Source: an uncultured Candidatus Saccharibacteria bacterium (GTDB taxonomy: Bacteria; Patescibacteria; Saccharimonadia; Saccharimonadales; UBA4665). From it: 50,153 bases of DNA. The stretch spans positions 1-50,153 of the forward strand of contig CAMLRZ010000006.1 in assembly GCA_946482575.1 (NCBI GenBank), given 5' to 3'. Position numbers and translations under genes: made by a program. Positions 6,542 through 46,847 of this stretch are shown in pieces. The notes under the pieces were generated by a model that had not been told where the DNA came from, did no database searches, and was given only the letters and a program-made list of their open reading frames with translations. The first letter of the stretch is position 1. Each line of letters starts with the position of its first letter.

Positions 6542-7045
6542 TTACTGTCCGAAGTTGAGCGCTTCGCCCTTAAGCAACGCAAACGCTTTGCGGAGAGCCT
6601 TGATCTCTGGGTCATCGGCGCCTTTGATGTCGTTGTAAATAGTTTCCAATTCGTCTTCGGCAATCCACTTAGAACCGGCATGATCCTCGGGATGTAAAAC
6701 GATCTTATCGGCGTCATCAAGCAATGTCGCAAAGTAAATTATTTCTACCGTTTGTGATCCTTTTACGGGATTGTGATAGTCAAAAACGTAAAACGGATCA
6801 CCTAAATGCACGTCTACTTCAAACTCTTCACGAATTTCACGACGCAGGCCGTCGGCAATGGTTTCACCAAAGTCGATGTGCCCGCCAGGGATCTCGTATA
6901 CGCCTGGCAAGAATTTTTTGGTATGGGCGCGCTGGGCTACAAAAATGCGCGGAACACCATTAATAGTTTGATGAATAAGGGCGCAGGCGCTAAAAACCTG
7001 CTGCCCCTGAGCTGGGGTTTCGCTGTCGTGCATCACTTTTGTCAT
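6542..7045 (-). CDS. Nudix hydrolase
   Basis: A 167-aa Nudix protein, expected to hydrolyse a nucleoside diphosphate linked to another moiety. The Nudix box runs from GGHIDFGE to REIREEFEV (about residues 52-75); the usual Gly near its end is Glu, a small deviation. I chose the ATG at 7045 (MTKVMHD) because a TATGAT -10 box ends exactly 6 nt before it, predicting a leaderless mRNA. A longer frame to 7195 would run through that promoter. The substrate cannot be told from sequence. Confidence 0.8.
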   Translation of the reverse strand: MTKVMHDSETPAQGQQVFSACALIHQTINGVPRIFVAQRAHTKKFLPGVYEIPGGHIDFGETIADGLRREIREEFEVDVHLGDPFYVFDYHNPVKGSQTVEIIYFATLLDDADKIVLHPEDHAGSKWIAEDELETIYNDIKGADDPEIKALRKAFALLKGEALNFGQ

Positions 7046-7051
7046 TCCACT

Positions 7052-7057
7052 ATCATA
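7052..7057 (-). promoter_or_regulatory. -10 box TATGAT, leaderless Nudix gene
   Basis: TATGAT ends 6 nt before the ATG at 7045 and no Shine-Dalgarno is present. Confidence 0.5.
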
Positions 7058-7122
7058 CGAACAGATTGCGTCTGTCGCAAGTTGCAAAGAGGCGTACAAT
7101 AAGAAAGTAAAGGAGTCAAAGC

Positions 7123-7950
7123 ATGAAGAAGCTAAAAAATGGTTTGTTTTCAGTTGTTGCAAGTCTCTTATTGCTGGCCGGAATATTGCCAGCAACCGTT
7201 AACGCCCAAAGTGGTATGCGCTATGTGGCAATGGGCGACTCGGTGGCTGCCGGAATTGGCCTGACATCGTTATCCTCGCCGACTACCAAAGACCTTGCTT
7301 GTGGGCGTTCTGCGCAGGCATATTCCAAGTACGTGGCCGCTGGCTGGGGCGCGTCTGTTAAGAATGTGGCATGCAGTGGGGCCTCGGCAGATAATTTGTA
7401 CAATACCCAGACCAGAAGTGGCGTAACCTTAGCACCCCAGATTGACGCGGCGTTTGCCTCGGGCAAGCCAGATGTAATCACCATTACCGTGGGAGCAAAC
7501 GATATTGGATGGCAAAACTTTATCAAAAAGTGCTACGCCTATTCATGCGGTAGCTCCACAGATAATGCGACCGCCAAAACACTTCGCGGCGTACTGCGAG
7601 CCCAGCTATTTAAGGCGTTGTGGTACGTTAACCAAAAGAGCAACGGAAATCCACCCAAGGTGTTACTAACCGGGTACTACGCACCATTTTCGAGCAAGCA
7701 GTGTAGCGACACTGCCGGTCTGACCGCAGCCGAAAAGACGTGGGTTAATAGTCAGACAGCCCAACTCAACCAGGCTATTTACAGTGTGACGCAGTGGTTT
7801 GGTACAGCCCAGTATGTTCCAGTGAGCTTTGCGGGTCACACATTGTGCAGTAGCAGTCCTTGGATTCAAGGCTTGAAAGCCGCCGCTCCGTTCCACCCAA
7901 CTGCCACAGGCCAAAAGGCAATTGCCAACGCAATCCTTAAGGCATACTAA
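7123..7950 (+). CDS. secreted SGNH/GDSL-family hydrolase
   Basis: A 275-aa exported hydrolase. Residues 1 to about 28 are a signal peptide (basic MKKLKNG, a hydrophobic core, then ATVNAQ). The SGNH motifs follow: MGDSVAAG with the nucleophile Ser near residue 40, VGANDIGW as the GxND block, and FHPTATGQ near residue 258 as the His block. The Asp usually three residues before that His is not visible. Cysteines are plentiful for this genome, so disulfides are possible. Likely an esterase acting outside the cell on lipid or acylated glycans. AAAGGAG precedes the start, with TACAAT further upstream. It shares a CTAA stop with the convergent L,D-transpeptidase. Confidence 0.85.
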   Translation: MKKLKNGLFSVVASLLLLAGILPATVNAQSGMRYVAMGDSVAAGIGLTSLSSPTTKDLACGRSAQAYSKYVAAGWGASVKNVACSGASADNLYNTQTRSGVTLAPQIDAAFASGKPDVITITVGANDIGWQNFIKKCYAYSCGSSTDNATAKTLRGVLRAQLFKALWYVNQKSNGNPPKVLLTGYYAPFSSKQCSDTAGLTAAEKTWVNSQTAQLNQAIYSVTQWFGTAQYVPVSFAGHTLCSSSPWIQGLKAAAPFHPTATGQKAIANAILKAY

Positions 7951-8564
7951 GTGACAATATTTACAGCCGTACCGTTTTCAGCCCAGCTGTAGAGCCATTT
8001 GGCAGTAGCGAGCGGTAACTCCACACAACCATGCGACCCCTGCGAGGAGTAGGGGTCAATGTTCCCAAATGCGCTATTATCGCGCCAGGTGGCGTCATGA
8101 AAACCATAGGTGCCGTACTGATTGTGCAGGAACGGCATCCAGTAATAGACGTAATCGTTCCAGCTACCCGTGCTGTCGGAGCCAGCCAAATACAGATTAG
8201 TTTGCTTACCATATATTTGGTAGGTGCCAGCGGGGGTAAGATCGGCTGCTAGCTTTTGCTGGCCGGTTACCACGGGCGAATCATACTGTTGCGAACTGTC
8301 CGCACACGCCCACAGGTGTCTGTCGGAAATACTGACGATAATCAGTTTATGGGCAGTGTTCCCGCTGCAGGGCGTGGACGGTTTTTGCGTGACAGCAGCG
8401 ATTGCTGCCGGCTTTGTTGTGGCTGCGGATACTGTATGATGCTGCGCCCGGACATGCCAGGCATAGGTGGTGACTGCGCTCAACAGTGACAAGGCTACTA
8501 AACCATGCCTAAGACGATGTTTTTGGGGCTTTTTTGGCTGAGTATGTCGATAGTGACTGTACAT
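7947..8564 (-). CDS. L,D-transpeptidase (YkuD domain), membrane-anchored
   Basis: A 205-aa protein with a basic N-terminus, one membrane segment (about residues 20-40), a low-complexity linker and a C-terminal YkuD domain. The catalytic motif is SHGCVELP near residue 180, with the upstream GFHDATW His block. The family forms 3-3 peptidoglycan crosslinks or attaches proteins to the wall through a Cys thioester; here it would act outside the membrane. A -10 TATGGT (8571-8576) ends 6 nt before the ATG, so the mRNA is probably leaderless. It is convergent with the SGNH hydrolase gene. Confidence 0.88.
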   Translation of the reverse strand: MYSHYRHTQPKKPQKHRLRHGLVALSLLSAVTTYAWHVRAQHHTVSAATTKPAAIAAVTQKPSTPCSGNTAHKLIIVSISDRHLWACADSSQQYDSPVVTGQQKLAADLTPAGTYQIYGKQTNLYLAGSDSTGSWNDYVYYWMPFLHNQYGTYGFHDATWRDNSAFGNIDPYSSQGSHGCVELPLATAKWLYSWAENGTAVNIVT

Positions 8565-8570
8565 ATCGCT

Positions 8571-8576
8571 ACCATA
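8571..8576 (-). promoter_or_regulatory. -10 box TATGGT, leaderless L,D-transpeptidase gene
   Basis: The hexamer ends 6 nt before the ATG at 8564, with no Shine-Dalgarno between them. Confidence 0.5.
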
Positions 8577-8634
8577 CGCCTCGCTTCACATATTCGCAAA
8601 ACTGTCGCAAATATGTGGCAATTTTGCCGTCTGC

Positions 8635-9588
8635 CTATTTAGCTTGCGATGAATCTGTAGTTTCTGCGGTAGTCTCGGTGTCGTCACCGGATGTATTGAA
8701 GCTAACCTCGTTCGCGGTGATAATAGCGTTTCGCATTTGTTCGCTAATGTCGCCCATGCCACCAGGAGAGTGAGGAATGAGAATGGTGTTGCTTTTGCCA
8801 GAAAGGCCAATGTCTTTGAGCGTGTCAAAATACTGCGTCATGAGCACCAGGTTCATAACGTCTTGGGCTTTAGTGCCATCCACGGAAGAACTAAAGTTTT
8901 CTACAGAAACTTTAAGACCGTCAATAATCGCTTTGCGCTGATCGGCGATACCTTTACCTTGCAATGCTTTGCTTTCGGCTTCGGCTTCGGCGGCTTTAAC
9001 GACACGGATTTTTTCGGCTTCAGCTTGTTGAATAGCGGCTTCACGCATACGCTGCGCAGCATTGATCTCGTTCATGCTGGATTTAACTTTGGCATCCGGG
9101 TCGATATCGGTAACAAGCGTCTTAATGATGTTGTATCCAAAGTCGTCCATCACAATGTCTAGCTCGTTCTTTACGGCAATAGCAATGTCGTCTTTCTTTT
9201 GGAAGACATCGTCAAGAATAATAGATGGTACGCGAGCCCGCACGGTGTCAAAAACGTAGGCAGTGATCTGTTCGCGGGGGTTCTGCAGGCGGTACACGGC
9301 GTCAGCAACTTTTTCGGGAAGAATACAATACTGAACGCTCACAATACAACGTACAAACACGTTGTCTTTGGTTTTGGTCTCGATTTCTACATCTAATTGC
9401 TGGATGCGCAAACTGGGTCGGGCAACAATGCGATCAATGATCGGTACCTTAATGTTAAGACCCGCGTACGCAACGCGTTTAAAACGACCGAATCGTTCTA
9501 TGACTGCTACTGTTTGCTGACGCACAACAAACAAGGAGTTGGCAAACAGGATAAACAAAAGTGCTGCAAAAATGTAGAAAAATACCAT
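8635..9588 (-). CDS. SPFH/Band 7 (stomatin-like) membrane protein
   Basis: A 317-aa stomatin/QmcA-type protein. Residues about 2-20 are a membrane segment, followed by the SPFH domain (RQQTVAVIERFGRF through TDIDPDA, about 22-180) and an Ala/Glu/Lys coiled coil (AAIQQAEAEKIRVVKAAEAEAESKA piecewise, about 185-225). The tail is acidic and Thr-rich. Such proteins oligomerise in membrane microdomains and often scaffold proteases; FtsH is encoded a few kb away, but a partnership is only suggested. An AGAGG ribosome binding site lies in front, with TATAGT (9619-9624) upstream. Confidence 0.87.
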   Translation of the reverse strand: MVFFYIFAALLFILFANSLFVVRQQTVAVIERFGRFKRVAYAGLNIKVPIIDRIVARPSLRIQQLDVEIETKTKDNVFVRCIVSVQYCILPEKVADAVYRLQNPREQITAYVFDTVRARVPSIILDDVFQKKDDIAIAVKNELDIVMDDFGYNIIKTLVTDIDPDAKVKSSMNEINAAQRMREAAIQQAEAEKIRVVKAAEAEAESKALQGKGIADQRKAIIDGLKVSVENFSSSVDGTKAQDVMNLVLMTQYFDTLKDIGLSGKSNTILIPHSPGGMGDISEQMRNAIITANEVSFNTSGDDTETTAETTDSSQAK

Positions 9589-9666
9589 AAGAACCTCTTG
9601 GGATTACTGAATGCGCGTACTATATCACGTGCTCGGTGGATAGTACAGGATAATTTGTGGGGGAGT

Positions 9667-10493: not shown

Positions 10494-10569
10494 GTTAAAA
10501 AACACCTTCGCGGATGCGAAAGCTCAGATAATTCTACAATAAACTGGCTGTTCCACCAACTAGCGTACG

Positions 10570-11181: not shown

Positions 11182-11187
11182 GTAATT

Positions 11188-11193
11188 ACTATA
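11188..11193 (-). promoter_or_regulatory. -10 box TATAGT, leaderless CYTH-like gene
   Basis: It ends 6 nt before the ATG at 11181. It lies just beyond the tRNA-Met terminator on the same strand. Confidence 0.5.
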
Positions 11194-11215
11194 AGTCACT
11201 GTTTTGGTTTGACCA

Positions 11216-11247: not shown

Positions 11248-11250
11248 TCT

Positions 11251-11985: not shown

Positions 11986-11995
11986 TACAATTGTA
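11986..11995. promoter_or_regulatory. palindromic divergent -10 TACAATTGTA
   Basis: TACAATTGTA reads TACAAT on both strands. The plus copy (11986-11991, extended -10 TGG) ends 6 nt before tilS; the minus copy (11995-11990) ends 9 nt before rdgB. Only 17 bp separate the two start codons, so RNA polymerase can serve only one direction at a time. Confidence 0.6.
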
Positions 11996-19791: not shown

Positions 19792-20029
19792 TTTGTGTAC
19801 CCTCTTGTTACTACGGTTTTTTAAGCTACTTTTTGTTGTTTGTTACATCGCGTGTAGGATAATTTGCGTATCAAGGAAATCGGAAGTGAGTAAAAAATAG
19901 TCGCCCCTGCAATGGTGGTCGATACTTTAATGGTACAGGCCAGAATGGAAACCTACAAGAGCATAAGCATGATAACTTTGTCACAATTTTGTTCAGGGGT
20001 AGGGCATGGCTAAAAAGCTTCACCTCTGT
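19792..20029. other. intergenic stretch between a small gene and lepA
   Basis: About 240 bp without a supportable gene. It contains the upstream region of the minus-strand small gene and the lepA promoter at its right end. I see no clear hairpin, repeat or RNA signature. Confidence 0.4.
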
Positions 20030-20035
20030 TATAAT
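20030..20035 (+). promoter_or_regulatory. extended -10 TGTTATAAT of lepA
   Basis: TATAAT ends 10 nt before the lepA ATG at 20046, leaving room for only a few leader bases and no Shine-Dalgarno. Confidence 0.55.
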
Positions 20036-22516: not shown

Positions 22517-22522
22517 TATAGT
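22517..22522 (+). promoter_or_regulatory. -10 box TATAGT, leaderless guanylate-kinase-like gene
   Basis: It ends 6 nt before the ATG at 22529. GGGGAG lies further upstream than the box and so is outside the predicted mRNA. Confidence 0.5.
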
Positions 22523-23269: not shown

Positions 23270-23955
23270 TGGGATTGATTCAGTCTCCGGAGATTACTGA
23301 ACTTACCATTGCTACCCTGGGGGAGGATGTTGTCGAAGAAATGCTTCACATCGATGGCTATACTTTTGCACATGGCTTAGCAACAGGTGCCATGACTGCC
23401 GAAGCACTGCAGGCCGCAGGGTGCAGCGAAGAGACAATAGTTATTGGGGCACTTGCCGGAGCTTTACACGATGTGGGCAAGTTTAGCCCCCGTATCCAGC
23501 AGTTGATGACGGAGTCCAGTGGGCAAAAGTTTACTCCGGGCCAGGCAACACTTATGCGAACGCACACTACGCGAGGTTTCTTGAGCTTGGCTCAATATTT
23601 GGGCCCAGACGTATTGACTGAGTCATCAGAAGGTAGTGTCGCGGCCTATACCGCGCTGCATCACCACGCCACGCTTACGCCCAGAACGTATCAGGCTAAA
23701 CCCTTGCACGCTGGCATTTGCCATACGGTGCAGCTTTGCGATGTTGCCCACGCTCGTCTTTTTGACCCAAATCGCACTTATCGAGCTGCTCGTGACGGCG
23801 TAGTCTATACTCCCCACCAAATTGGACGCCAAATTGTGGCGCAATTTACCGACTTTCCGCCGCAGCCTCAGGGCCACCGAGTGCCTGTTGAAGAGCTTGT
23901 TATGAGCTGGGCAGATAGAGCTGCACACTCACAAGACCCTAGCACTCTTGACTGA
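23269..23955 (+). CDS. HD-domain phosphohydrolase
   Basis: A 228-aa protein with an HD metal-dependent phosphohydrolase fold. The motif LHDVGKFS lies near residue 68, with earlier FAHGL and later HTTRGF and HHHATL supplying metal ligands; the pattern resembles HD-GYP-like domains but is not a full HD-GYP. The family hydrolyses nucleotides or cyclic dinucleotides; the substrate is unknown. It is translationally coupled to the guanylate-kinase-like gene, which suggests nucleotide metabolism. Its last codons carry the left half of the CIRCE element controlling hrcA. Confidence 0.75.
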   Translation: MGLIQSPEITELTIATLGEDVVEEMLHIDGYTFAHGLATGAMTAEALQAAGCSEETIVIGALAGALHDVGKFSPRIQQLMTESSGQKFTPGQATLMRTHTTRGFLSLAQYLGPDVLTESSEGSVAAYTALHHHATLTPRTYQAKPLHAGICHTVQLCDVAHARLFDPNRTYRAARDGVVYTPHQIGRQIVAQFTDFPPQPQGHRVPVEELVMSWADRAAHSQDPSTLD

Positions 23956-23971: not shown

Positions 23972-23977
23972 TATCAT
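23972..23977 (+). promoter_or_regulatory. -10 box TATCAT of hrcA
   Basis: It ends 7 nt before the ATG at 23985, with TTGACT 18 bp upstream inside CIRCE. It supports 23985 as the start and predicts a leaderless, autoregulated transcript. Confidence 0.6.
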
Positions 23978-23984: not shown

Positions 23985-24692
23985 ATGACAGAACGTCAAA
24001 AACAGATACTTCACGCCATTGTCGAGCAGTACGCCGAAGTCGCCAGCCCGGTAGGCTCCAGTCTGCTCGCAAAGCTTTTTGGTGTGAGCTCGGCAACTAT
24101 CCGTGCGGAGATGGCTGAACTGGAACGCCTGGGATTTATTACGCAACCGCATACCAGTGCGGGCCGCGTTCCAACCGACAAAGGCTATCGTTTTTACGTT
24201 AATAACCTGGGCGAAAACAAACATGAAACCGGAGCAGAGCGCCGCGCAGAGCGGGCGCTGAGCGCACGAGTACAGACCGGTGGCATGCCTGAACGTACCA
24301 TCCGTAATGCTGTGGACACGCTGGTAGAACTCACCCACAATCTTGGTCTGGCAACTATTGGCAACCAGTTGTATATGAGCGGTTTGAGCAATCTGTTTGG
24401 TCAACCGGAATTTATGCAAGCCTCTCAGGTACGCCAAGTTGCGCAATTGCTCGATAATTTAGAGCCGTGGCTGCATGAAGCGGCGCCAAATCAGCCGCTA
24501 AGCGTTTATATTGGCCAAGAGAACCCCATTGGCCGCAGTGCTGGCTGCTCGCTTATTATTAGCCGCTTTCGTAGTTCGTACTCCGACCAAAGTTACATTG
24601 GGGTGCTAGGTCCAACCCGACAGAGTTACAAAGACGTTATGCAACTTGTTCGTTTTGCTGGCGAATCATTAGAGGAGGTTTTGTATGAATAA
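23985..24692 (+). CDS. hrcA: heat-inducible transcription repressor HrcA (short form)
   Basis: A 235-aa HrcA, the repressor that binds CIRCE at chaperone genes. The N-terminal winged helix is clear (ERQKQILHAIVEQY, PVGSSLLAK, SSATIRAEM, PHTSAGRVPTDKGYR). The C-terminal domain keeps YIGQENP and GVLGPTRQSY. HrcA is usually about 340 aa, so roughly 100 residues in the middle are missing. I prefer ATG 23985; an ATG at 23955 overlapping the HD stop (TGATG) would add ten residues inside CIRCE and could be used on read-through transcripts. It overlaps grpE by 8 nt. Confidence 0.9.
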   Translation: MTERQKQILHAIVEQYAEVASPVGSSLLAKLFGVSSATIRAEMAELERLGFITQPHTSAGRVPTDKGYRFYVNNLGENKHETGAERRAERALSARVQTGGMPERTIRNAVDTLVELTHNLGLATIGNQLYMSGLSNLFGQPEFMQASQVRQVAQLLDNLEPWLHEAAPNQPLSVYIGQENPIGRSAGCSLIISRFRSSYSDQSYIGVLGPTRQSYKDVMQLVRFAGESLEEVLYE

Positions 24693-25206
24693 ACAGCATA
24701 TTGACGTAGATGACGCGGCACAGCAGGATGAACCGCACCATCCTAAAAAGCACATGGAAGTAGACGTAGTTGCACTCGAGCAGCAAGTAGCGGAGCTAAC
24801 CGACGCCTTGCAGCGTGAGCGCGCCGACGCCACCAACATTCGCCGACGCCACCAAGACCAAGTGGCAGGCTTAAAAACCATGATCAAGGCAGAGGTAGTC
24901 CGCGACCTACTGCCTGTTATCGACAATTTTGAGCGCGCTCTCAAACATGTTCCCGACAATCTAAAAGACGATGATTACGTCAAAGGCGTACAGGGCGTTG
25001 TAAAGCAGTTCGAGAAAACACTCGAACAAATGGGCGTGCAGCGAATCAAAACAACCGGCCAGCCGTTTGACCCTAAATGGCACGAAGCCGTAAGCATGGA
25101 AGAGGGCGACGGCACGCAAGAAGTAGTCAGCGAAGAACTGCAGGCCGGATACGCCATTGGTGACGAAGTGATTCGCCACGCGATGGTCCGTGTCAAAATG
25201 GCATAG
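24685..25206 (+). CDS. grpE: GrpE nucleotide-exchange factor
   Basis: A 173-aa co-chaperone that releases ADP from DnaK. An acidic, His-rich N-terminus leads into a long coiled coil (about residues 28-75), then VIDNFERAL, the GVQGVVKQFEKTLEQMGV block and a beta-rich C-terminus (FDPKWHEAV). The ATG lies inside the hrcA end, and an AGAGGAGG ribosome binding site is encoded in hrcA. It belongs to the CIRCE-controlled operon. Confidence 0.94.
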   Translation: MNKQHIDVDDAAQQDEPHHPKKHMEVDVVALEQQVAELTDALQRERADATNIRRRHQDQVAGLKTMIKAEVVRDLLPVIDNFERALKHVPDNLKDDDYVKGVQGVVKQFEKTLEQMGVQRIKTTGQPFDPKWHEAVSMEEGDGTQEVVSEELQAGYAIGDEVIRHAMVRVKMA

Positions 25207-30968: not shown

Positions 30969-31060
30969 AACCATTCCTTGACAAATTCGTTATTTTATAA
31001 TAAAATTACCACAGTTATTTTACATTTTCAAGCAAAAATACACGCTTAATAAAAGTCTGA

Positions 31061-31066
31061 TACTAT
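31061..31066 (+). promoter_or_regulatory. extended -10 TGATACTAT, leaderless rimB-rimK
   Basis: TACTAT ends 6 nt before the ATG at 31073. Confidence 0.5.
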
Positions 31067-31072: not shown

Positions 31073-31570
31073 ATGGCACGAACCGATTTTCACAAAGTTA
31101 TTGTAGGCCGCTCAGAGTCCTTGCATTTCATGGACTACAACATGGCCGACATTCCCGCAAAAGTAGATACCGGCGCATACCGCTCTGCAGTACATGCTGA
31201 TAATATCCAACTTTCCGAGGATGGCAAAACGCTTTCTTTCCGTTTATTAGGCGGACACCCGGTGTGTGGCGCACTGGCAGCAGATATGAGCACCGATTCC
31301 TTCAAAGTCGTGCTTATTTCTAATTCATTTGGTCACACCGAAGAACGGTACGAAGTTAAACTTCGTGTAAAACTGGGGCCCAAAATCTTTACGGCAACCT
31401 TCTCGTTGGCCGACCGATCAAAAAAGATTTATCCAATTTTGTTAGGGCGCAAGATGCTGAACAACCGCTTTTTGGTTGATACGGCTCATGCCCAAATTAA
31501 TCGTGTCGAACTGAAAAAGCAATATGGTATTTCGTTCCCAGATGACGAAGAGGTGGAGGACCAGGCTTAA
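31073..31570 (+). CDS. RimB-like retropepsin-fold protein (RimK-associated)
   Basis: A 165-aa protein of the Zn_protease/RimB family (DUF785). The signature is AKVDTGAYRSAVHAD at about residues 25-40, a DTGA aspartic-protease-like motif, with LLGRKMLNNRFLVD near the C-terminus. Family members are encoded beside RimK and are thought to remove the glutamates that RimK adds. It is translationally coupled to rimK (TAATG). The mRNA is probably leaderless. Confidence 0.85.
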   Translation: MARTDFHKVIVGRSESLHFMDYNMADIPAKVDTGAYRSAVHADNIQLSEDGKTLSFRLLGGHPVCGALAADMSTDSFKVVLISNSFGHTEERYEVKLRVKLGPKIFTATFSLADRSKKIYPILLGRKMLNNRFLVDTAHAQINRVELKKQYGISFPDDEEVEDQA

Positions 31571-32475
31571 TGCGCATTGCAATCTTATCCCGTGGCGCCG
31601 CGAACTACACAACACGCCGACTCAAAGAAGAGGCGATTGCTCGCGGTCACGAAGTAAAAGTGATCAACTATTCCAAATGTTATATGACCATCGAAAAGAG
31701 CAATCCGTTGGTTTACTACAAGGGTAAACCCCTGATGGGTTTTGATGCAGTAATCCCACGAATCGCCCAAAGTTACACAAAGTATGGCTGTTCGGTGGTT
31801 CGCCAATTTGAAATGCAAGGCATCTACACGCCTGCCAAATCAATTGCTATTAACCGATCTCGTGACAAATTGCGCACTTACCAATTGCTGGCGCGCGATG
31901 GTGTTGGCGTTCCCAAGACCGTGTTCGCTCACGAAACTGCCGACTTTGAAGACGTGATAGAAAAAGCTGGCGGCGCTCCATTAATTGTAAAAGTAGCCCG
32001 CGGTACCCACGGTAACGGTGTGGTTTTGGCCGAAACCAACAAGGCTGCCAAAGCAGTAATGCAGGCCTTCTATGTGGAAGGTGTGAGCTTTTTGGTGCAG
32101 GAATTTGTTAAAGAATCTGCCGGTGAAGACATTCGTGCCATCGTAGTTGGCGGCCAAGTTGTAGCAAGCATTAAGCGCCAAAGCTTGGACGACGATTTTC
32201 GCTCTAACACCCACCAAGGTGGCGTTGGTAAGATCGTAAAACTGACTGCTGAAGAAGAGCGCACCGCGTTGCGTGCCGCCAAAGCAATGGGTCTTTCTAT
32301 TTGTGGTGTAGACATGATGCGCTCCAGCCGCGGCCCATTGGTGCTCGAAGTAAATTCATCAGCCAGTATTAAAACTCCCGAAATGCTCAGCACACGAAAC
32401 GTTGCTGCAAAAATGATCGAATACATCGAAAAAAATGCCAAACAGCGCAACCGCAAAGACAAAGTGGGCGCCTAG
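31570..32475 (+). CDS. rimK: RimK family alpha-L-glutamate ligase
   Basis: A 301-aa ATP-grasp ligase. In E. coli RimK adds Glu residues to the C-terminus of ribosomal protein S6. Here the N-terminal domain (RIAILSRG, VIPRIAQSYTKYG) is followed by the grasp domain with LIVKVARGTHGNGVVL, LVQEFVKESAGEDIRAIVV and LVLEVNSSASIKTPE (metal ligands). It is coupled to the RimB-like gene upstream, and its last 41 nt overlap the DUF192 gene. The substrate here could be S6 or another protein. Confidence 0.88.
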   Translation: MRIAILSRGAANYTTRRLKEEAIARGHEVKVINYSKCYMTIEKSNPLVYYKGKPLMGFDAVIPRIAQSYTKYGCSVVRQFEMQGIYTPAKSIAINRSRDKLRTYQLLARDGVGVPKTVFAHETADFEDVIEKAGGAPLIVKVARGTHGNGVVLAETNKAAKAVMQAFYVEGVSFLVQEFVKESAGEDIRAIVVGGQVVASIKRQSLDDDFRSNTHQGGVGKIVKLTAEEERTALRAAKAMGLSICGVDMMRSSRGPLVLEVNSSASIKTPEMLSTRNVAAKMIEYIEKNAKQRNRKDKVGA

Positions 32476-32902: not shown

Positions 32903-32908
32903 TATTAT
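32903..32908 (+). promoter_or_regulatory. extended -10 TGCTATTAT, leaderless membrane-protein gene
   Basis: TATTAT ends 6 nt before the ATG at 32915. Confidence 0.5.
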
Positions 32909-33747: not shown

Positions 33748-33776
33748 TTTACAAAAAAGCAAAAGCATGATACTAT
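33748..33776 (+). promoter_or_regulatory. promoter TTTACA-N17-TACTAT of a small orphan gene
   Basis: The -35 TTTACA and the -10 TACTAT (extended, TGA) are 17 bp apart, the best-formed promoter pair in the window. The -10 ends 9 nt before the ATG at 33786. Confidence 0.65.
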
Positions 33777-34061: not shown

Positions 34062-34067
34062 TACCAT
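34062..34067 (+). promoter_or_regulatory. extended -10 TGCTACCAT, leaderless comEC
   Basis: TACCAT ends 6 nt before a GTG start, with no Shine-Dalgarno. Confidence 0.45.
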
Positions 34068-35570: not shown

Positions 35571-36296
35571 ATGTCAGGACACTCAAAATGGTCTACCATT
35601 AAACGCGAGAAAGGTGCCAAAGATGCAGCTCGCGGAGCAGTATTTACTAAAATCGGCAATGCAATTGCTATTGCCGCCCGAAGTGGCACCGACCCCGACA
35701 TGAACTTTGCACTGCGCTTGGCTATCGACAAAGCTAAGGCGGCAAACATGCCTTCGGCCAACATCCAGCGCGCTATTGATCGCGTCAAAGACAAGAACGC
35801 TGCGCAGCTACAAGAAATTTTGTATGAAGGGTACGGCCCGGGCGGTACGGCGATTCTAGTAGAATGTGCCACGGACAACATAAATCGCACCTATCCCGAA
35901 GTTCGTTTGGCATTTAGCAAACACGGCGGAAACATAGCCGAAAAGGGTGCGGTTGCATTCCAATTTGAACGAAAAGGTTTAATTCGAGTCAAGGGCAGTG
36001 GCGACGACTTAATGCTGCAGGCCTTAGACGCTGGGGCTGAAGATATGCAAGAGGAAGGCGATGAATCGGTTATTTACACCGACCCTAAGGCGTTGGCCCA
36101 GGTTCGCGAAGCTTTGACAGCTGCCGGTATTGAAGTGGTAGAGGCTGAGCTGACATTCGTACCCAATAACACGGTAGAAGTAACTGACGAAGCTACAGCC
36201 GGCAAAATTATGCGTCTTATGGACGCGCTGGAAGCTTGTGATGACGTGACGAACACGCACGTTAACTTTGATATTGATGAATCTTTGATCAAATAG
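35571..36296 (+). CDS. YebC/PmpR family regulator or translation factor
   Basis: A 241-aa YebC-family protein, described as a DNA-binding regulator and more recently as a ribosome-associated factor. It starts with the family hallmark MSGHSKWSTIKREKG and contains YEGYGPGGTAILVECATDN. I chose ATG 35571, with AAGGAG 8 nt upstream. A TATAAT sits in the end of comEC, so it can be transcribed separately. It overlaps the convergent PLD gene by 8 bp. Confidence 0.94.
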   Translation: MSGHSKWSTIKREKGAKDAARGAVFTKIGNAIAIAARSGTDPDMNFALRLAIDKAKAANMPSANIQRAIDRVKDKNAAQLQEILYEGYGPGGTAILVECATDNINRTYPEVRLAFSKHGGNIAEKGAVAFQFERKGLIRVKGSGDDLMLQALDAGAEDMQEEGDESVIYTDPKALAQVREALTAAGIEVVEAELTFVPNNTVEVTDEATAGKIMRLMDALEACDDVTNTHVNFDIDESLIK

Positions 36297-37368
36297 CTAG
36301 GGTTTGGTTGCGGATAAAATCTGCAGCTGCTTGGGCGAATTGCGGGTCTTTGCGTCGCATAGCAAGTTCGGCTGTGCCAAAAGCTACGCCTACGCCAATG
36401 TAGTTGTGACTGCCAACCATTGCTTCGTGCTCGCTTGCCAGGACTTTGGCGTGCATAAATGGCGTACGAACGGATAGCCGGTGTCTAAAAAGTTCCTTGG
36501 GCATACGTAATCGCTCACGCCCTTCCGAGGCAAATTGAGCGGGCGACTCTACCAGACCATGTTTGGAGGGGCGGTTATACAATACGGTTACGTCCACGCC
36601 GCGTTGCAGTGCGCGCGCAAGTGCGAAGGCGGTCTGTCCATTGGGGAAATATTGGCAGGTGATAAGCAGCGTTTTTTGCGCGTGATCAATAACGTCTAGC
36701 GCATTTTGCAGGATTATTGACTGACCTTTGACGCCAACATCCAGAAGTAATGTGGTGTTTGCGTCGACGGTGTGCGCTATGTCGTGTGTGCCAAACGCTT
36801 GCAGTGTGTAGGGCTTGTTAAGTAGCTTAGACATCTCGGCGTGTAGCCAGTCTGCGGTGGGTGGATCCACAAAGCTGACCATTTCATCCAGCTCCGTTGG
36901 CTCATGCAGATTATGACCCCCAATAAATACACGGTCATTAACCACAGCGGTCTTAATATGCGAGCGTCCAACGAACGGGGCTGCTATTTTGGTGTGCGGC
37001 TGGTTGGTGATTGCACAACGAACGCCGTGCTGCTGCAAATACGCTACCGCAGAAGTGACAGCTCGGTGGTTGCGTGACTGGACGCGAGGATTTACACCCG
37101 GCCACACAAAGGCGCCTATACGGGCAGCAGTGCGATTGGCGTACGTAATGGTGTATGCGTCAAAGATTAGCCGTACATCGGCGCCACGTTTACTGGCATG
37201 AGCCAGGGCGGTTACCAGCTCGGGAATGTGAGTCGGTTCAAAATTCATACTTGCTACCAGGATTCTATCGCCAGCGCCAGCGGTGTCGCATAATCGGGCG
37301 AGCTCAGTAAAATAGTCGGGACGGTTGTAAAAAGTGAAATCGCTGGCTTGCAAGGATGTAATTGGCAT
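36289..37368 (-). CDS. phospholipase D-like (cardiolipin synthase-type) protein
   Basis: A 359-aa protein with two HKD-type motifs: SHIKTAVVNDRVFIGGHN near residue 137 and MHAKVLASEHEAMVGSHN near residue 313. That is the PLDc architecture, used for phospholipid transfer (cardiolipin synthesis) or hydrolysis. No membrane segment is evident at the N-terminus, unlike classical cardiolipin synthases. The ATG is 22 bp from ruvC on the other strand; a TATAAA box ends 8 nt before it and overlaps the ruvC -10. Confidence 0.85.
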   Translation of the reverse strand: MPITSLQASDFTFYNRPDYFTELARLCDTAGAGDRILVASMNFEPTHIPELVTALAHASKRGADVRLIFDAYTITYANRTAARIGAFVWPGVNPRVQSRNHRAVTSAVAYLQQHGVRCAITNQPHTKIAAPFVGRSHIKTAVVNDRVFIGGHNLHEPTELDEMVSFVDPPTADWLHAEMSKLLNKPYTLQAFGTHDIAHTVDANTTLLLDVGVKGQSIILQNALDVIDHAQKTLLITCQYFPNGQTAFALARALQRGVDVTVLYNRPSKHGLVESPAQFASEGRERLRMPKELFRHRLSVRTPFMHAKVLASEHEAMVGSHNYIGVGVAFGTAELAMRRKDPQFAQAAADFIRNQTLAI

Positions 37369-37376
37369 GACCTTAT

Positions 37377-37384
37377 TTTATACT
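37377..37384. promoter_or_regulatory. overlapping divergent -10 boxes of ruvC and the PLD gene
   Basis: TATACT (37379-37384) ends 6 nt before ruvC; the reverse strand of 37377-37382 reads TATAAA and ends 8 nt before the PLD gene. They share four base pairs. Confidence 0.55.
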
Positions 37385-37904: not shown

Positions 37905-37910
37905 CATAAT
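37905..37910 (+). promoter_or_regulatory. -10 box CATAAT of ruvA
   Basis: It ends 7 nt before the ATG at 37918, without a Shine-Dalgarno. Confidence 0.45.
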
Positions 37911-38499: not shown

Positions 38500-39537
38500 A
38501 TGGCAGTCGAGCGCATTGTAAACACCGTTGTAAATGACACCGAAGACACCCAGCAAGAGCAGGAATTTGAGAATGTACTGCGCCCAAAGGATTTTGCTAA
38601 CTATATTGGGCAGGAACGCCTAAAACAAAATCTAAAATTAGCCATTCAGGCCGCTAAAAAACGCGGTGAACCGCTGGATCACGTGTTGCTGTATGGGCCA
38701 CCGGGTTTAGGAAAGACCACCATGGCGAATGTGATTGCCAATGAAATGGGCGCACAGATCAAAGTTACCAGCGGCCCGGCAATCGCGCACGGAGGTGATT
38801 TGGCAAGCCTCCTTACCAACCTTCAGGATGGCGACATTTTATTTATTGATGAAATCCATCGTTTGAACCGCCAAGTTGAAGAAGTACTTTATTCGGCGAT
38901 GGAAGATTTTAAGCTGGATATTATGATCGGCAAGGGTCCAAGTGCTCGTAGCCTGCGCTTGGATTTGCCTAAATTCACTCTGTTGGGCGCTACCACCCGC
39001 ACTGGCGCACTCGCTGCACCGCTTCGCGATCGCTTCGGTATGCTACACCGTTTAGAATTTTACACAAACGATGAAATTCAACAGATTATTGAACGAGCTG
39101 CCACCATTCTGCAAGTGAGCATTAAGGCTGAGGCCGCAAAAGAACTGGCCACACGTGCCCGGTTGACGCCGCGCATTGCCAACCGACTGCTGAAGCGCGT
39201 ACGAGACTACGCTGACGTAAATGGTGACGGCATCATTGATACGGTTATTAACCGCAAAGCGCTGGCGCTCTTAGAAGTGGATGAGCTTGGTTTGGACCCA
39301 GCTGATCGCATGCTGCTGACCGCAATTATTGACAGTCACCGTGGCGGACCAGTAGGCGTTGAGACTATCGCGGCCTTAACCGCGGAAGAGCGGGGCACGA
39401 TTGAAGATTTTTACGAGCCATATTTAATGCAAATCGGACTTTTAGAACGCACGCCTCGTGGACGCAAAGTAACAAGTAAGGCATATCGACATTTAGGCCG
39501 CCCGTATCACACCGATGAGCCCGCAAGTCTGGTATAA
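38500..39537 (+). CDS. ruvB: Holliday junction branch migration ATPase RuvB
   Basis: A 345-aa AAA+ motor that drives branch migration on RuvA-bound junctions. Walker A is GPPGLGKTT, Walker B is LFIDEIHR, sensor 1 is in [11 protein letters not shown], and the arginine-finger region follows in PLRDRFG. The C-terminal winged helix ends in [17 protein letters not shown]. The start follows ruvA by 3 bp. Its TAA lies inside the -10 box of the next gene. Confidence 0.97.
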
Positions 39538-39538
39538 T
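39533..39538 (+). promoter_or_regulatory. extended -10 TGGTATAAT overlapping the ruvB stop
   Basis: TATAAT contains the ruvB stop (TAA, 39535-39537) and ends 7 nt before the next ATG. Confidence 0.5.
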
Positions 39539-40947: not shown

Positions 40948-40953
40948 ATTATA
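40948..40953 (-). promoter_or_regulatory. -10 box TATAAT of the pilin gene
   Basis: It ends 9 nt before the ATG at 40938, which allows the pilin to be expressed separately from the PilB-like gene. Confidence 0.55.
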
Positions 40954-42311: not shown

Positions 42312-42319
42312 TTGCATCT

Positions 42320-42325
42320 ATTATA
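42320..42325 (-). promoter_or_regulatory. -10 box TATAAT of the PilB-like gene
   Basis: It ends 8 nt before the ATG at 42311. Confidence 0.5.
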
Positions 42326-42449: not shown

Positions 42450-42499
42450 AATAGTAAATCAGCAAGACCGGTGGGGTAACAATTCGGAGGGTATTACGA

Positions 42500-43546
42500 A
42501 TGGCAGATAAAAAAGATTCTAAAAAGACGGCGACCGCGGCAAACGCGGAGCTCGCTTCGCAAACTGATGGTAAATCCAAAGCACTTGGCCTGGCGTTAGA
42601 AACCATCGAAAAACAGTTTGGTAAAGGTGCCATTATGAAGTTGGGCGCTGCTCAGCAGCAAAAAGTTGAGTGCTACCCAACGGGCAGTATTTCGCTCGAC
42701 TTGGCGTTGGGCGGCGGTATTCCCCGTGGTCGTGTTATTGAAATTTATGGTCCGGAAAGCTCTGGTAAGACCACGCTGACCTTGCACGCTATTGCCGAGG
42801 TGCAGAAACGTGGCGGTACAGCGGCATTTATTGACGCCGAGCACGCCCTTGACCCTACATATGCCAAGCGTATTGGTGTAGATGTGGATAACTTGCTACT
42901 CAGCCAGCCAGACAATGGTGAACAAGCATTGGAGATTGCCGAAACATTGGTACGTTCCAACGCTGTTGACTTAATTGTAGTCGACTCTGTTGCTGCCTTG
43001 GTGCCTCGCGCCGAAATTGAAGGTGACATGGGCGATAGTTTGCCCGGTTTGCAAGCTCGTTTGATGAGCCAGGCCTTGCGTAAGCTGACCGGTGTTATTA
43101 ACAAATCTAAAGCAACCGTGATCTTTATTAACCAGATTCGTATGAAGATTGGTGTGATGTTCGGCAACCCAGAAACCACCACTGGTGGTAATGCCCTGAA
43201 GTTTTACGCATCAGTGCGTATGGACATTCGCCGCACCTCGCAAATTAAACAAGCGGACGCAGTTATTGGTAATCGCACCCGCGTGAAGGTGGTCAAAAAC
43301 AAGATCGCGCCGCCATTCCGTGAGGCAGAATTCGACATTATGTACAACGAGGGTATTTCTAGAGCTGGCGATGTCCTAGACATGGCCGTGGCCCGCAATA
43401 TTGTGGACAAGGCGGGCGCTTGGTTTGCGTATAACGACCAAAAGATCGGCCAAGGCCGCGAAGCCGCCAAGCAGCATCTGCAAGCCAACCCCGAAGTAAT
43501 GGAAGAAATCGCCGCAAAAGTTAAGGAAGCAGCGAGCGCAGAGTAG
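42500..43546 (+). CDS. recA: recombinase RecA
   Basis: A 348-aa RecA that forms the strand-exchange filament on single-stranded DNA. Walker A is GPESSGKTT, Walker B is [12 protein letters not shown], loop L1 is [17 protein letters not shown] in part, and the [20 protein letters not shown] segment is loop L2. The length matches the family. The N-terminus is Ala/Lys-rich before AIEKQFG-type residues ([15 protein letters not shown]). recX lies 0.5 kb downstream. Confidence 0.98.
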
Positions 43547-43553
43547 GCAAGGT

Positions 43554-44018
43554 GTGACCGCAACAAACCATGTATTAACAGGGGCGGTTATAGGAACGGT
43601 GGTGGGATCGCCGGCGCTGGCGGTTCCGCTGGCGTTTGCTTCGCACTTTGTTTTGGATGCTCTGCCTCATTTTGGCATTCATGAAGATGACACGCTAAAA
43701 CGGAACGGCCATTGGCTGTTCCGTTCGGTTGTCATAACCGACACGATGCTAACAATTGCTACGCTCGTTTTAGTTCCAGTAGCGGTGCACACCGCGGTGA
43801 ATGCCTGGGCGGTGCTGGCAGCTATGTTCGCGGCCTTAATCCCTGACTTATTGTGGATACCCCACTTTATTCATGAGGTTCGCCACAAAGTAGCTCGAAC
43901 CAAAACGCGATTTATGGTGTGGCATCAACATATTCAATGGAGCGAAACTCCCTGGGGCTTGCTGGTGGAATTGTTGTGGGCAGCGTGTGCAATAACGGCT
44001 ATAGTTCTTGCGACATGA
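43554..44018 (+). CDS. small membrane protein, DUF457/YdjM-like
   Basis: A 154-aa protein with three to four hydrophobic segments. The opening TNHVLTGAVIGTVVG and FASHFVLDALPHFG, with conserved His and Asp residues, resemble the membrane-bound metal-dependent hydrolases of the YdjM/DUF457 type. The start is GTG 43554, 7 bp after recA. The stop overlaps the recX ATG (ATGA), so the three genes form one unit. The activity is unproven. Confidence 0.6.
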   Translation: MTATNHVLTGAVIGTVVGSPALAVPLAFASHFVLDALPHFGIHEDDTLKRNGHWLFRSVVITDTMLTIATLVLVPVAVHTAVNAWAVLAAMFAALIPDLLWIPHFIHEVRHKVARTKTRFMVWHQHIQWSETPWGLLVELLWAACAITAIVLAT

Positions 44019-44632
44019 AGATTACCCAGATTAAGCAACAGGTTAAACGACCGGATCGTTACTCAATTTATGTAGATGGCAAATTTGCATTTGGGCTGAG
44101 CGAAGCAGGTCTGTTGGGGAGTGGCTTGGCTAGTGGGCAGGAGATTTCCCAGGAGCAGTTTGCCGCGCTCAAGTCTGATGCTGCGACCGATAAAGCCTAC
44201 GGCAATGCCTTGCGGTATGTGGTTATGCGCCCGCGGAGCGTGTGGGAAATGCAGCAGTATTTTATGCGCAAAAAAGTGGATGAACCGGTGGCCAAAGAGA
44301 TTATTGAACGCTTAATGGCGCTTGACTTGCTAGACGACCGCAAGTTTGCCGAAGCATGGGTTGCAAATCGTCGATTGTTAAAGCCAACCAGCCGACGCAA
44401 ACTTCAGCTAGAATTGCGTCAAAAACATGTATCCTCGTCGATTACTGATGCAGTGCTTGCCCAAGACGCTGAAGATTCCAACGAAGCTCCGGACCGCACG
44501 GCACTGGCTGAGATTGTGGCCAAAAAGCGAGCGCGGTATCCGGATGAAACTAAATTTATGCAATATTTGGCTCGTCAGGGGTTTGGCTATGACGACATTA
44601 AGCGAGCGCTACAAGATCCCGAAGAAATCTAG
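44015..44632 (+). CDS. recX: regulatory protein RecX
   Basis: A 205-aa RecX, which binds the RecA filament and limits its activity. The N-terminal strand region (YSIYVDGKFAFGLSEAGLL) and three-helix repeats with RPRSVWEMQQYFMRKKV, LDDRKFAEAWVANR and LARQGFGYDDIKRAL are typical. I chose ATG 44015 (MKITQIK), whose ATGA overlaps the upstream stop; a longer frame runs back into the neighbouring gene. It converges on the next gene through CTAG. Confidence 0.88.
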   Translation: MKITQIKQQVKRPDRYSIYVDGKFAFGLSEAGLLGSGLASGQEISQEQFAALKSDAATDKAYGNALRYVVMRPRSVWEMQQYFMRKKVDEPVAKEIIERLMALDLLDDRKFAEAWVANRRLLKPTSRRKLQLELRQKHVSSSITDAVLAQDAEDSNEAPDRTALAEIVAKKRARYPDETKFMQYLARQGFGYDDIKRALQDPEEI

Positions 44633-45153
44633 GCAACAGCGCGGGCGCCTGCCGGGACTTTTTCGAGCAAGTCTTGAATGATAATTTTCTTATCGGTGAT
44701 TTCAACAATTTGCGTGCGATCTACACCCAAATTACCGCCACTAAAGTTCTTGTATAGCGGTCGCGAGACGTATAGTTTTTGAATATACATGCCGCTTAAC
44801 TCTACCGAGTAATCCTCGACCTTGCCAATGCGTGCGTGCCGAGTGGTGGTTACCTGCTTGCCGATAACTTCAAAACGAGCGGCAAGTACATCGTGCAGAC
44901 GAACAAGCTCCGATGGATCCGTAAGCACATCGGAGTCATTAACCACGATCCCCTGCGGGATGATGTCACGAATATCCTGATTAATGAGAATGATTTCGCC
45001 ATGTTTGCCCTTGTGGTATGGGTCCTGGCAGTAAAAACCCTCAATTTTTAGATTGTTTGGGTTAATGACGGGCGCTAAAGCTACCGCTACCTGCGTGCCA
45101 GTGCGCAAGCTCATGACTGGCAAATTTGTGAGAGCACTACTAAGTTGGAGCAT
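44629..45153 (-). CDS. PRC-barrel domain protein
   Basis: A 174-aa protein built of two PRC-barrel-like halves: LPVMSLRTGTQVAVALAPVINPNN piecewise and FEVIGKQVTTTRHARIGKVEDYSVE. PRC-barrels occur in photosynthetic reaction centres and RimM and serve as protein-binding beta barrels. No membrane segment. -10 TATACT (45163-45168) ends 9 nt before the ATG. Role unknown. Confidence 0.78.
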   Translation of the reverse strand: MLQLSSALTNLPVMSLRTGTQVAVALAPVINPNNLKIEGFYCQDPYHKGKHGEIILINQDIRDIIPQGIVVNDSDVLTDPSELVRLHDVLAARFEVIGKQVTTTRHARIGKVEDYSVELSGMYIQKLYVSRPLYKNFSGGNLGVDRTQIVEITDKKIIIQDLLEKVPAGARAVA

Positions 45154-45272
45154 ACTATTGCAAGTATACCGCTCTTTGCAGAACAGGGCAAAAGCCTTGT
45201 GGTTATGCTGACTGTTGTAAAATTATTTTGACTATTTTTGCGCAAAGACTTGCATTGCGAGGCAGTGATTCC

Positions 45273-45278
45273 TACAAT
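45273..45278 (+). promoter_or_regulatory. -10 box TACAAT of the lamin-tail protein gene
   Basis: It ends 9 nt before the ATG at 45288. This supports that start over an in-frame ATG 60 nt upstream. Confidence 0.5.
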
Positions 45279-45287
45279 CGCGCTGTC

Positions 45288-46847
45288 ATGAAAAAATCTA
45301 TATACATGTGCATCCGACTCCTAAGCGTTTTAGTGGCTGCGACCCTGGCCATGCCAGCTTCGGCACTGGCGGTGGCGGGCAATGTGGCCGTAACACCACC
45401 AGTTTTAATTACCGAAATGCAGCCTGGCACCGAAGCGAGTGGCTCGCAAGAATTTATAGAATTGTATAATCAATCAACCGAGCCGATAGACTTGACCGCC
45501 GAACAGTGGCGCCTGCAGCTTGCCTCGTCGAAAGCCACAACGTGGGACGGCGCAAAGAACATAGCCCTGAATGGAACCTTCTACCCCGGAACATATCTAC
45601 TGGTGTCGAGTAATTATGTGGCCGCCGGCGATACACAGAGTTATTTGCAGCAGTACGCCAGCGCCCAGTTTAGTGCTGGATTAACAGCAAGCTCCGGCCA
45701 TATAAGACTGGTTCGCACCCTTGATAACGCAACTACTGAGGTTGATCGGCTGGAATGGAGCACACAAGCGAACGGATCATATGCTAGCGAGGGTATTGGG
45801 GGTGCAAGTACCTTTACGTTGGCATCTGCGGTGAGCGTTGGGTCGAGCATCAAGCGTACACTGAATGCTAACCAAATATTTATGGCTGACACAGATGTAA
45901 TGAAAAACTTTGCCATTTCCGTATGCCCAAGCCCGACAGCTAATAACGCTCCGCCGACTACGCCGTTGCCGGTAACTGCTACAGCTCCACTTCCCACCGC
46001 CGTGGATGTCACGAACCCGTTATGCGAGACGCCTACTGGCAATGGAGGGTCCGACGGCGAGCTACCGTCATCTGGTACCGAGCCGCCAGCCGTACTGCTA
46101 CCAAGCGAAACATCCACCCCCAGCAACACAGCAACCCCGTCAATCCCGGCGGCCGACATTGGCCTGAACGCCCCACAAATTACAGAGTTGCTGCCAAACC
46201 CTGGCTCGCCTCGAACAGATGCTACTGATGAATTTGTTGAGCTGTACAACCCTAACGCTGTTCCGTTCGATTTATCGGGATTTATACTGGAAGCAGGGCT
46301 AACAGGGAATAAGCACTATACATTTCCTGCGGGAACTACCATTCCTGCGCGTACATTCGTAGCCTATTTTTCGGAAACCACTAAACTTAGCCTTTCCAAC
46401 ACGAGCGGTAAGGTGGTATTACTGGATCCACTGCAGCGGGTTATTTCGCAAAGCGACACCTATGCTACTGCCAAAGATGATGTGGCCTGGGCGCGAGCAA
46501 ATGGCGCGTGGTACTGGACAACGCAGCCTACACCAAACGCCTCGAATGTAATTAAGCAGCCTGCCACAAAGTCCAAAAAAGCAACAGCCTCCACAGCGAG
46601 TAAAAAAGCCTCATCTACCGCCAAAACATCTACCACTCAAAAAGCTACCACGCCAGATACTGCACAGCTAGCATCGACAACCGCGCAAGACACGCCGCTT
46701 CATCCGCTAACGCTTGCAGTAGTAGGAGCATTCGCGCTACTATACGGGGCATATGAGTACCGTCATGACATGGCAAACAAGTTCTACCAGCTCCGAAGAT
46801 ACCGAGAAGCTCGCAGAGAAGCTCGGCGCCAGCTTAAAGGGCGGTGA
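45288..46847 (+). CDS. secreted surface protein with two lamin-tail domains
   Basis: A 519-aa exported protein. It has a signal peptide (residues about 1-30, ending ASALAV), lamin-tail domain 1 (about 38-180: LITEMQPG, EFIELYNQS), a Ser/Thr/Pro linker, lamin-tail domain 2 (about 295-430: ITELLPNPG, EFVELYNPN), a Lys/Ser/Thr-rich stretch, one membrane segment (about 478-495) and a short Arg-rich cytoplasmic tail. It probably stands on the cell surface by its C-terminal anchor. The last 95 nt overlap tsaE in another frame. Confidence 0.85.
   Translation: MKKSIYMCIRLLSVLVAATLAMPASALAVAGNVAVTPPVLITEMQPGTEASGSQEFIELYNQSTEPIDLTAEQWRLQLASSKATTWDGAKNIALNGTFYPGTYLLVSSNYVAAGDTQSYLQQYASAQFSAGLTASSGHIRLVRTLDNATTEVDRLEWSTQANGSYASEGIGGASTFTLASAVSVGSSIKRTLNANQIFMADTDVMKNFAISVCPSPTANNAPPTTPLPVTATAPLPTAVDVTNPLCETPTGNGGSDGELPSSGTEPPAVLLPSETSTPSNTATPSIPAADIGLNAPQITELLPNPGSPRTDATDEFVELYNPNAVPFDLSGFILEAGLTGNKHYTFPAGTTIPARTFVAYFSETTKLSLSNTSGKVVLLDPLQRVISQSDTYATAKDDVAWARANGAWYWTTQPTPNASNVIKQPATKSKKATASTASKKASSTAKTSTTQKATTPDTAQLASTTAQDTPLHPLTLAVVGAFALLYGAYEYRHDMANKFYQLRRYREARREARRQLKGR

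Follow-up and report, generated by a model that had tools for sequence, protein, structure and literature searches.

The closest described systems are the TA-led genes, which carry a TANNNT motif about 12 bp upstream of the start codon more often than dinucleotide shuffles do and average 19.2% of genes in Actinobacteria and 39.4% in Deinococcus-Thermus, mixed with genes led by a Shine-Dalgarno (SD) sequence (Zheng et al. 2011, PMC3160421), and the leaderless genes of Mycobacterium tuberculosis, which make up 26% of the genes with a primary transcription start site (TSS). In that species, the -10 element is dominant, a -35 consensus is lacking, and SD and leaderless transcripts are reciprocally distributed (Cortes et al. 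2013, PMC3898074). We analyzed a stretch of 50,153 nucleotides (contig CAMLRZ010000006.1 of assembly GCA_946482575.1; hereafter the window, meaning the whole stretch) from a relative of Saccharibacteria (TM7), in which a first-pass annotation had noted -10 hexamers close before many start codons and had proposed pervasive leaderless transcription. These boxes are very probably ordinary primary-sigma promoters, set so that transcription would start on the start codon or within a few nucleotides of it. As in the TA-led genes, a -10 box lies about 10-12 bp upstream more often than in shuffles, and such genes are mixed with SD-led ones; unlike the TA-led set, the genes described here belong to another phylum, frequently have a TGN-extended -10 and a weak -35, and lie in loci of 36-55% GC. 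The 5' ends of M. tuberculosis were mapped, whereas the Saccharibacteria case is a prediction from sequence (PMC3898074). This is a known and uncommon mode of initiation, here in a group where our searches turned up no earlier description, and it concerns about one gene in four, not most.

The GC content of the window is 50%, and its LepA shares 72-84% identity with those of 80 related loci that were retained for comparison, most of them titled Saccharibacteria and the rest Patescibacteria, Saccharimonas, or "bacterium." The window and these loci together (the lepA set) hold 925 genes, 870 of them with ATG. For the gene counts in these loci and in the genomes sampled below, start codons were taken from coding potential alone, so that the box played no part in their choice, and dinucleotide-preserving shuffles of the upstream sequence served as the null model. 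The gene finder favors ATG starts and called 149-175 genes per 200-212 kb, missing some, above all small ones. With these starts, 10 of the 37 ATG genes in the window had a box matching at least 5 of 6 positions at 6-10 nt, compared with an average of 0.8 and a largest value of 5 in 2,000 shuffles. In the lepA set, a box was identified 6-10 nt before the ATG in 262 of 870 genes, with 94, 38, 70, 38, and 22 at gaps of 6, 7, 8, 9, and 10 nt, respectively, against 4.6-7.4 in shuffles at each gap. Gaps of 0-5 nt held 9, 8, 7, 6, 3, and 4 boxes, which is background, so that counts jumped from 4 at 5 nt to 94 at 6 nt, a hard floor. Training a weight matrix on half of the loci and applying it to the remaining half gave 33% observed and 3% in the null, with no excess at 16-20 nt.

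The optimum distance from the -10 to the transcription start is 7 bp in Escherichia coli (PMC12825309). A box fewer than 6 nt from the ATG would exclude the start codon from the mRNA, and below this distance the counts fall to background. We take this asymmetry as the best evidence available from sequence that the ATG would coincide with the transcription start or follow closely behind it.

We extended the count to seven genomes of relatives, sampled as 71 spread stretches with 1,142 genes, and found the peak in all seven: 262 genes (22.9%) had a box at 6-10 nt, against 2.1% in shuffles, with a share of 18.8-28.0% per genome. There was no excess at 16-20 nt, and gaps of 0-4 nt held 0.7-4.5%, compared with 1.8-3.6% in the null. 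Two of the 71 stretches overlap lepA loci; without them, 255 of 1,107 genes (23.0%) were boxed. In three 50 kb stretches of E. coli K-12, with their own training and the same hexamer criterion as the lepA set, none of 104 genes had a box at 6-10 nt. A search of 99 genomes of the class returned 8,697 occurrences of TATAATN{6,8}ATG and 2,833 of the control TATAATN{1,3}ATG, a spacing that may itself be depleted by selection; 97 genomes exceeded a 1.5-fold excess and none was at or below 1. The genome-wide peak that the first-pass annotation had put forward as its test was thus found when looked for in relatives. Among 135 further genomes of the phylum, the two patterns occurred 7,502 and 4,491 times, the ratio exceeding 1.5 in 82 genomes and reaching no more than 1 in 16. 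A coarse look at other classes, in genomes chosen by a high or low pattern ratio, covered 15 stretches of at least 9 kb after 5 that were too short had been set aside; of their 190 genes, 26 had the box at 6-10 nt and 6 had it at 16-20 nt. Ten phylum genomes had fewer than 10 matches to either TATAAT-ATG spacing; they may use different promoters or be high in GC. GC content as a driver of the boxes was rejected (correlation of 0.18 over 61 loci).

The TANNNT motif is permissive, and the starts were originally chosen by the same reader who chose the boxes, so that matches picked by eye could have arisen by chance; the weak single sites at 8564, 31073, and 34074 may still be of this kind. As a general account, chance is refuted by the excess at unbiased starts in the window and by the spacing bias across the class, and we give it next to no weight. 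The claim that the spacing does not look random was therefore well founded. The word "pervasive" fared less well, for the signal is real and class-wide but extends to only about one gene in four, with SD-led starts about as common.

The neighborhood of the boxes resembles that of primary-sigma promoters, as supported by the spacing of -35 elements, the TGN extension, and the CIRCE operator. In a non-redundant set of 217 boxes picked solely on the hexamer, TGN was present in 79, a T lay 23 bases before the start of the box in 59%, and a G two bases before it in 57%; a TTGACA-like element matching at least 4 of 6 positions was found at 17 bp in 30 (10.6 in shuffles) and at 18 bp in 20 (9.7 in shuffles). 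In the seven genomes, a -35 at 17 bp accompanied 34 of 262 boxed genes against 11.0 in shuffles, and TGN preceded 98 of 243 hexamer boxes; the figure for matrix-chosen boxes (121 of 262) is biased, since the matrix itself scores TGN. An unusual primary sigma factor was rejected in the one genome examined, where the protein is canonical (372.8 bits to solved SigA) and has the stretch PVHMVETINKL aligned to that structure, presumably the part that contacts the extended -10. Sigma region 4 matches were identified in 12 of 12 genomes.

Upstream of hrcA, we identified the inverted repeat GCACTC-N9-GAGTGC, a CIRCE-like operator; in the window, the -35 TTGACT forms the loop of the repeat itself. Among 65 hrcA upstream regions, 54 contained CIRCE and 11 lacked it within 50 nt; the distance from its end to the ATG was 20-26 nt in 49 cases and 1-12 nt in the other 5. 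The best -10 (at least 4 of 6 positions, downstream of the first half-site) lay 6-10 nt before the ATG in 48 of 54 regions, at exactly 6 nt in 33, and was absent in 4, while a TTGAC, TTGTC, or TTGCA string stood in or at the edge of CIRCE in 38 of 54.

These features bear on the possibility that the motif is a signal of translation or composition, such as an AT-rich, unfolded upstream region or an S1 site, and not a promoter. An AT-rich bias at -20 to -10 has been considered ambiguous in other phyla (PMC5397173), these genomes encode proteins of 355-404 aa that carry four S1 matches, and most boxes are without a good -35. However, a -35 at 17-18 bp, TGN, and CIRCE at a nearly fixed distance are signals of transcription, and shuffles that keep the composition yield no peak; we consider this explanation highly improbable.

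Boxed and SD-led genes differed in their position. Where the co-directional gap was below 10 nt or the genes overlapped (233 genes), 51% had an SD-like tetramer and 2% a box; at co-directional gaps of 10-59 nt, the box share was 35-49% in four bins (205 genes in total). Divergent gaps of 40-59 nt and 60-99 nt had a box in 71% of 14 and 44% of 80 cases, respectively, and gaps above 100 nt in 20-25%. Boxes thus stand at genes that head a transcription unit and must supply their own promoter, and SD sequences at tightly packed downstream genes. SD genes that head a unit (111 genes, including partly repeated orthologs) had -10s at 26-30, 46-50, and 81-85 nt, with 6, 12, and 8 hits where about 1 each was expected. 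An SD-like tetramer preceded 25-41% of genes per genome in the seven genomes and was found in 13 of 262 boxed genes compared with 360 of 880 unboxed genes (9% in shuffles). Box genes started with 257 ATG and 5 GTG, and SD genes with 348 ATG, 24 GTG, and 1 TTG, whereas M. tuberculosis shows similar frequencies of ATG and GTG in the two classes (PMC3898074), a difference to be read with a gene finder that favors ATG. In the 15 stretches from other classes, an SD-like tetramer was present in 19 of 190 genes (0-4 of 6-18 in each), which is close to the shuffle level for the window's class and below its 25-41%.

We also searched for losses in the translation apparatus that might underlie leaderless genes. 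Loss of the anti-SD was rejected, with GGATTACCTCCTTTCT at the 3' end of 6 of 6 full-length 16S genes (16S matches were found in 7 of 12 genomes, one of them partial). A missing S1 was rejected with matches in 12 of 12 genomes, 11 of which encode the 355-404 aa protein with four S1 matches, the remaining genome having two S1 matches and none in such a protein, and a missing bS21 with matches in 12 of 12, 6 of them above cut-off. YchF, a promoter of leaderless mRNA translation, is described as broadly conserved in the discussion of a 2025 paper on this phylum (PMC12641178). On these sequence grounds, the system appears to be a mixed leaderless and SD one, as in mycobacteria, other Actinobacteria, and Deinococcus.

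A further explanation places the true starts downstream, so that the boxes would be real promoters with normal leaders and the marked ATG an upstream AUG. At six window sites of the 21 (20046, 23985, 34074, 37391, 42311, and 45153), the coding-only finder preferred a different start, and it left four uncalled (31073, 32915, 33786, and 40938); among those six, 34074 alone is shifted far downstream (to 34242), with 45153 moving to 45114. Moreover, for ruvC and ruvA an SD-like tetramer precedes an in-frame start further downstream, at codon offsets 12 and 27. In contrast, an SD-preceded in-frame start within the next 30 codons is lacking at 19 of the 21 sites, and family models align from residue 1 (ruvC, ruvA), 2 (hrcA), and 3 (lepA) of the boxed start, which backs the starts proposed in the first-pass annotation at lepA, hrcA, and ruvC. 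The peak also remains among genes with only one possible start (an in-frame stop at most 15 codons upstream and no other start from that stop to 60 nt downstream), where 90 of 361 were boxed against 2.7% in the null. We therefore regard displaced starts as very unlikely. At lepA, the alternative upstream ATG at 20034 falls inside the -10 box, and at the T2SSE ATPase gene the upstream ATG at 42317 is only 2 nt from it.

Conservation was assessed among orthologs by counting boxes of 4 of 6 positions or better at 6-10 nt and at control gaps of 16-20 and 26-30 nt. The box was found in 49 of 64 hrcA orthologs (9 and 3 at the control gaps) and 25 of 45 gmk orthologs (9 and 2). None stood at 6-10 nt before dnaK (0 of 49), rimK (0 of 15), or 24685-25206, a gene named grpE from its position alone (0 of 6), in line with the near lack of boxes at packed downstream genes. 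Before lepA, a CACCTCTGTTATAAT-like string (20021-20035 in the window) recurs in many of 45 relatives, so that bases 5' of the extended -10 are also conserved; it is possibly a regulator site.

Several points weigh against leaderless initiation as read here. Retention among orthologs was incomplete at lepA (35 of 79; controls 7 and 11), tilS (31 of 59), and murJ (22 of 62), and at control level for gene 31073 (4 of 15; controls 2 and 6), and single sites may reflect chance or turnover. The lepA-set loci share orthologs around lepA, and their counts are not independent. The -35 exceeds chance yet accompanies a small minority of boxes, some boxes are weak (4 of 6), and gaps of 9-12 nt would imply leaders of 2-5 nt. 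The scarcity of SD sequences in boxed genes is consistent with leaderless starts and no independent proof of them: the exclusion of box and SD (13 genes with both, 86 expected) was dropped as separate evidence after a control in which boxes were grafted onto unboxed upstream regions predicted 13-19 genes with an SD, since the box occupies the room of the SD. In the literature searched, we found no mapped 5' end for this organism.

Leaderless initiation from these promoters would proceed as follows. Primary-sigma RNA polymerase would recognize a strong, often TGN-extended -10, with the -35 mostly weak or absent; the first nucleotide of the mRNA would be the A of the ATG or a base just upstream, and the ribosome would accept the 5'-terminal AUG without SD contact. 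Genes of the other class, most of them close behind a co-directional neighbor's stop codon, would use the SD and the intact 16S anti-SD. In a small genome, a complete promoter could fit in 20-50 nt of intergenic space. The analysis shows the boxes, their spacing, their promoter-like surroundings, and the scarcity of SD sequences next to them; the position of the 5' ends, leaderless translation, and an advantage of compactness are what we infer.

In the window, opposed -10s overlap between the genes of two divergent pairs, whose start codons are separated by 18 bp (11980/11998) and 23 bp (37368/37391). In E. coli, 18 bp is the commonest distance between divergent TSSs, and 10 and 23 bp are also common (PMC12825309; PMC10268837). 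The window pairs resemble the bidirectional promoters with one symmetric -10 described by Warman and colleagues in these distances, and differ in that the start codons themselves lie 18 and 23 bp apart, so that both mRNAs would be leaderless. Divergent pairs with two boxes in the lepA set were 16-24 bp (9) or 41-58 bp (11) apart, with none between, in a count that allows alternative starts and includes some loci or orthologs more than once. Among 153 divergent pairs in the seven genomes, with starts chosen by the finder, the shortest distances were 20, 23, 24, 24, 26, 31, 37, and 37 bp, and 5 pairs were at most 26 bp apart, a minority arrangement. Across the 99 genomes, the symmetric pattern occurred 139 times at 23 bp (77 for the reversed control) and 102 times at 18 bp (78 for the reversed control, p 0.09), an excess at 23 bp and hardly one at 18 bp, all counted as sequence matches irrespective of gene calls.

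A broader reading, to which we give slightly less than an even chance as a whole, holds that leaderless promoters are the main start mode of independent Saccharimonadia genes because a whole promoter fits between close genes; that one symmetric -10 could serve two divergent genes with starts 18-24 bp apart, in a promoter of about 20 bp with no untranslated region; and that the habit would be weaker and patchy in other classes of the phylum.

The 21 window sites are listed in Table 1. The first-pass annotation had placed twelve starts at 6-7 nt from a -10, and when read and scored the boxes were present (hexamers matching TATAAT at 4 of 6 to 6 of 6 positions), at 6 nt for 7045, 8564, 11181, 11998, 22529, 32915, 34074, and 37391 and at 7 nt for 23985, 37918, and 39546; at 31073, two registers overlap, the 6 nt one as read and the 8 nt one as chosen by the scorer. 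The nine further starts at 8-10 nt were likewise borne out, with 37368 alternatively at 6 nt. Extended -10s, said to be many, occur at 8 of 21 sites (11998, 32915, 34074, 37918, 39546, 6520, 20046, and 33786). A good -35, said to be lacking, is indeed the exception at the window sites and in relatives: the best match at 15-19 bp was 5 of 6 at 23985 and 33786, 4 of 6 at six sites, and 2-3 of 6 at 13. An SD-like tetramer was found at only 1 of 21 (8564).

Table 1. Predicted -10 boxes and associated elements in the window, with the start codons they precede.
Element	Position	Strand	Relation to start codon
-10 TATAAT with TGA	6530..6535	-	9 nt before ATG 6520
-10 TATGAT	7052..7057	-	6 nt before ATG 7045
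-10 TATGGT (4/6)	8571..8576	-	6 nt before ATG 8564; SD-like tetramer also present
-10 TATAGT	11188..11193	-	6 nt before ATG 11181
Palindrome TACAATTGTA, two opposed -10 hexamers	11986..11995	both	Between ATG 11980 and tilS ATG 11998; + TACAAT 6 nt before ATG 11998, - TACAAT 9 nt before ATG 11980
-10 TATAAT with TGT	20030..20035	+	10 nt before lepA ATG 20046
-10 TATAGT	22517..22522	+	6 nt before gmk ATG 22529
CIRCE-like operator GCACTC-N9-GAGTGC, -35 TTGACT (23948-23953) in loop	23942..23962	+	
-10 TATCAT	23972..23977	+	7 nt before hrcA ATG 23985; 18 bp after -35
-10 TACTAT (TGA-extended) or GATACT	31059..31066	+	6 nt or 8 nt, respectively, before ATG 31073 (RimB/RloA-like retropepsin)
-10 TATTAT with TGC	32903..32908	+	6 nt before ATG 32915
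-10 TACTAT with TGA, -35 TTTACA at 17 bp	33771..33776	+	9 nt before ATG 33786 (68 aa ORF)
-10 TACCAT (4/6) with TGC	34062..34067	+	6 nt before GTG 34074 (ComEC-like)
Opposed overlapping -10s	37375..37384	both	Between ATG 37368 and ruvC ATG 37391; + TATACT 6 nt before ATG 37391, - TATAAA (8 nt) or TAAAAT (6 nt, scorer's choice) before ATG 37368
-10 CATAAT with TGG	37905..37910	+	7 nt before ruvA ATG 37918
-10 TATAAT with TGG	39533..39538	+	7 nt before ATG 39546
-10 TATAAT	40948..40953	-	9 nt before ATG 40938 (type IV pilin-like)
-10 TATAAT	42320..42325	-	8 nt before ATG 42311 (T2SSE ATPase)
-10 TATACT	45163..45168	-	9 nt before ATG 45153
-10 TACAAT	45273..45278	+	9 nt before ATG 45288 (lamin-tail-domain protein)

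Genes of the window include those for FtsH, MurJ, LepA, guanylate kinase, HrcA, an Hsp70, RuvC-RuvA-RuvB, RimK, RNase Y, and pilus parts, along with two tRNAs. The gene at 31073-32475, directly before rimK, encodes a retropepsin-like protease (RimB and RloA3 models, below cut-off), and together with rimK, which matches the S6 glutamate ligase model above cut-off, forms a RimB-RimK-like pair. Divergent from ruvC, 36289-37368 encodes a protein with a below-cut-off match to the DISARM phospholipase-D-like DrmC, and the protein encoded at 45288-46847 has lamin tail domains (Pfam LTD, two stretches).

Among the open-access titles listed in our searches, which for the wider ones were the best 15-30 of 64-282 papers, we found no report of leaderless genes or mapped starts in Saccharibacteria or Patescibacteria, and the words TM7, Saccharibacteria, and candidate division are absent from the text of Zheng et al. 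(2011, PMC3160421); an earlier computational listing of leaderless genes in the group is possible. Few Patescibacteria are cultivated, and these are mostly Saccharibacteria (PMC10633639). The gene tools for Saccharibacteria are young; Southlakia epibionticum has been transformed with a nanoluciferase cassette (PMC10633639), and expression cassettes could be designed better. Start codons could be corrected, as at lepA, hrcA, and ruvC. A 2024 review considered regulation of translation as likely key to Patescibacteria differentiation and proposed riboswitches (PMC11665869); riboswitches need an untranslated region, which about a quarter of the genes should not have. How ribosomes handle leaderless and SD mRNAs in host-attached and swarmer cells becomes a testable question, and the presence of the signal across the class and partly in the rest of the phylum is relevant to how early such initiation spread.

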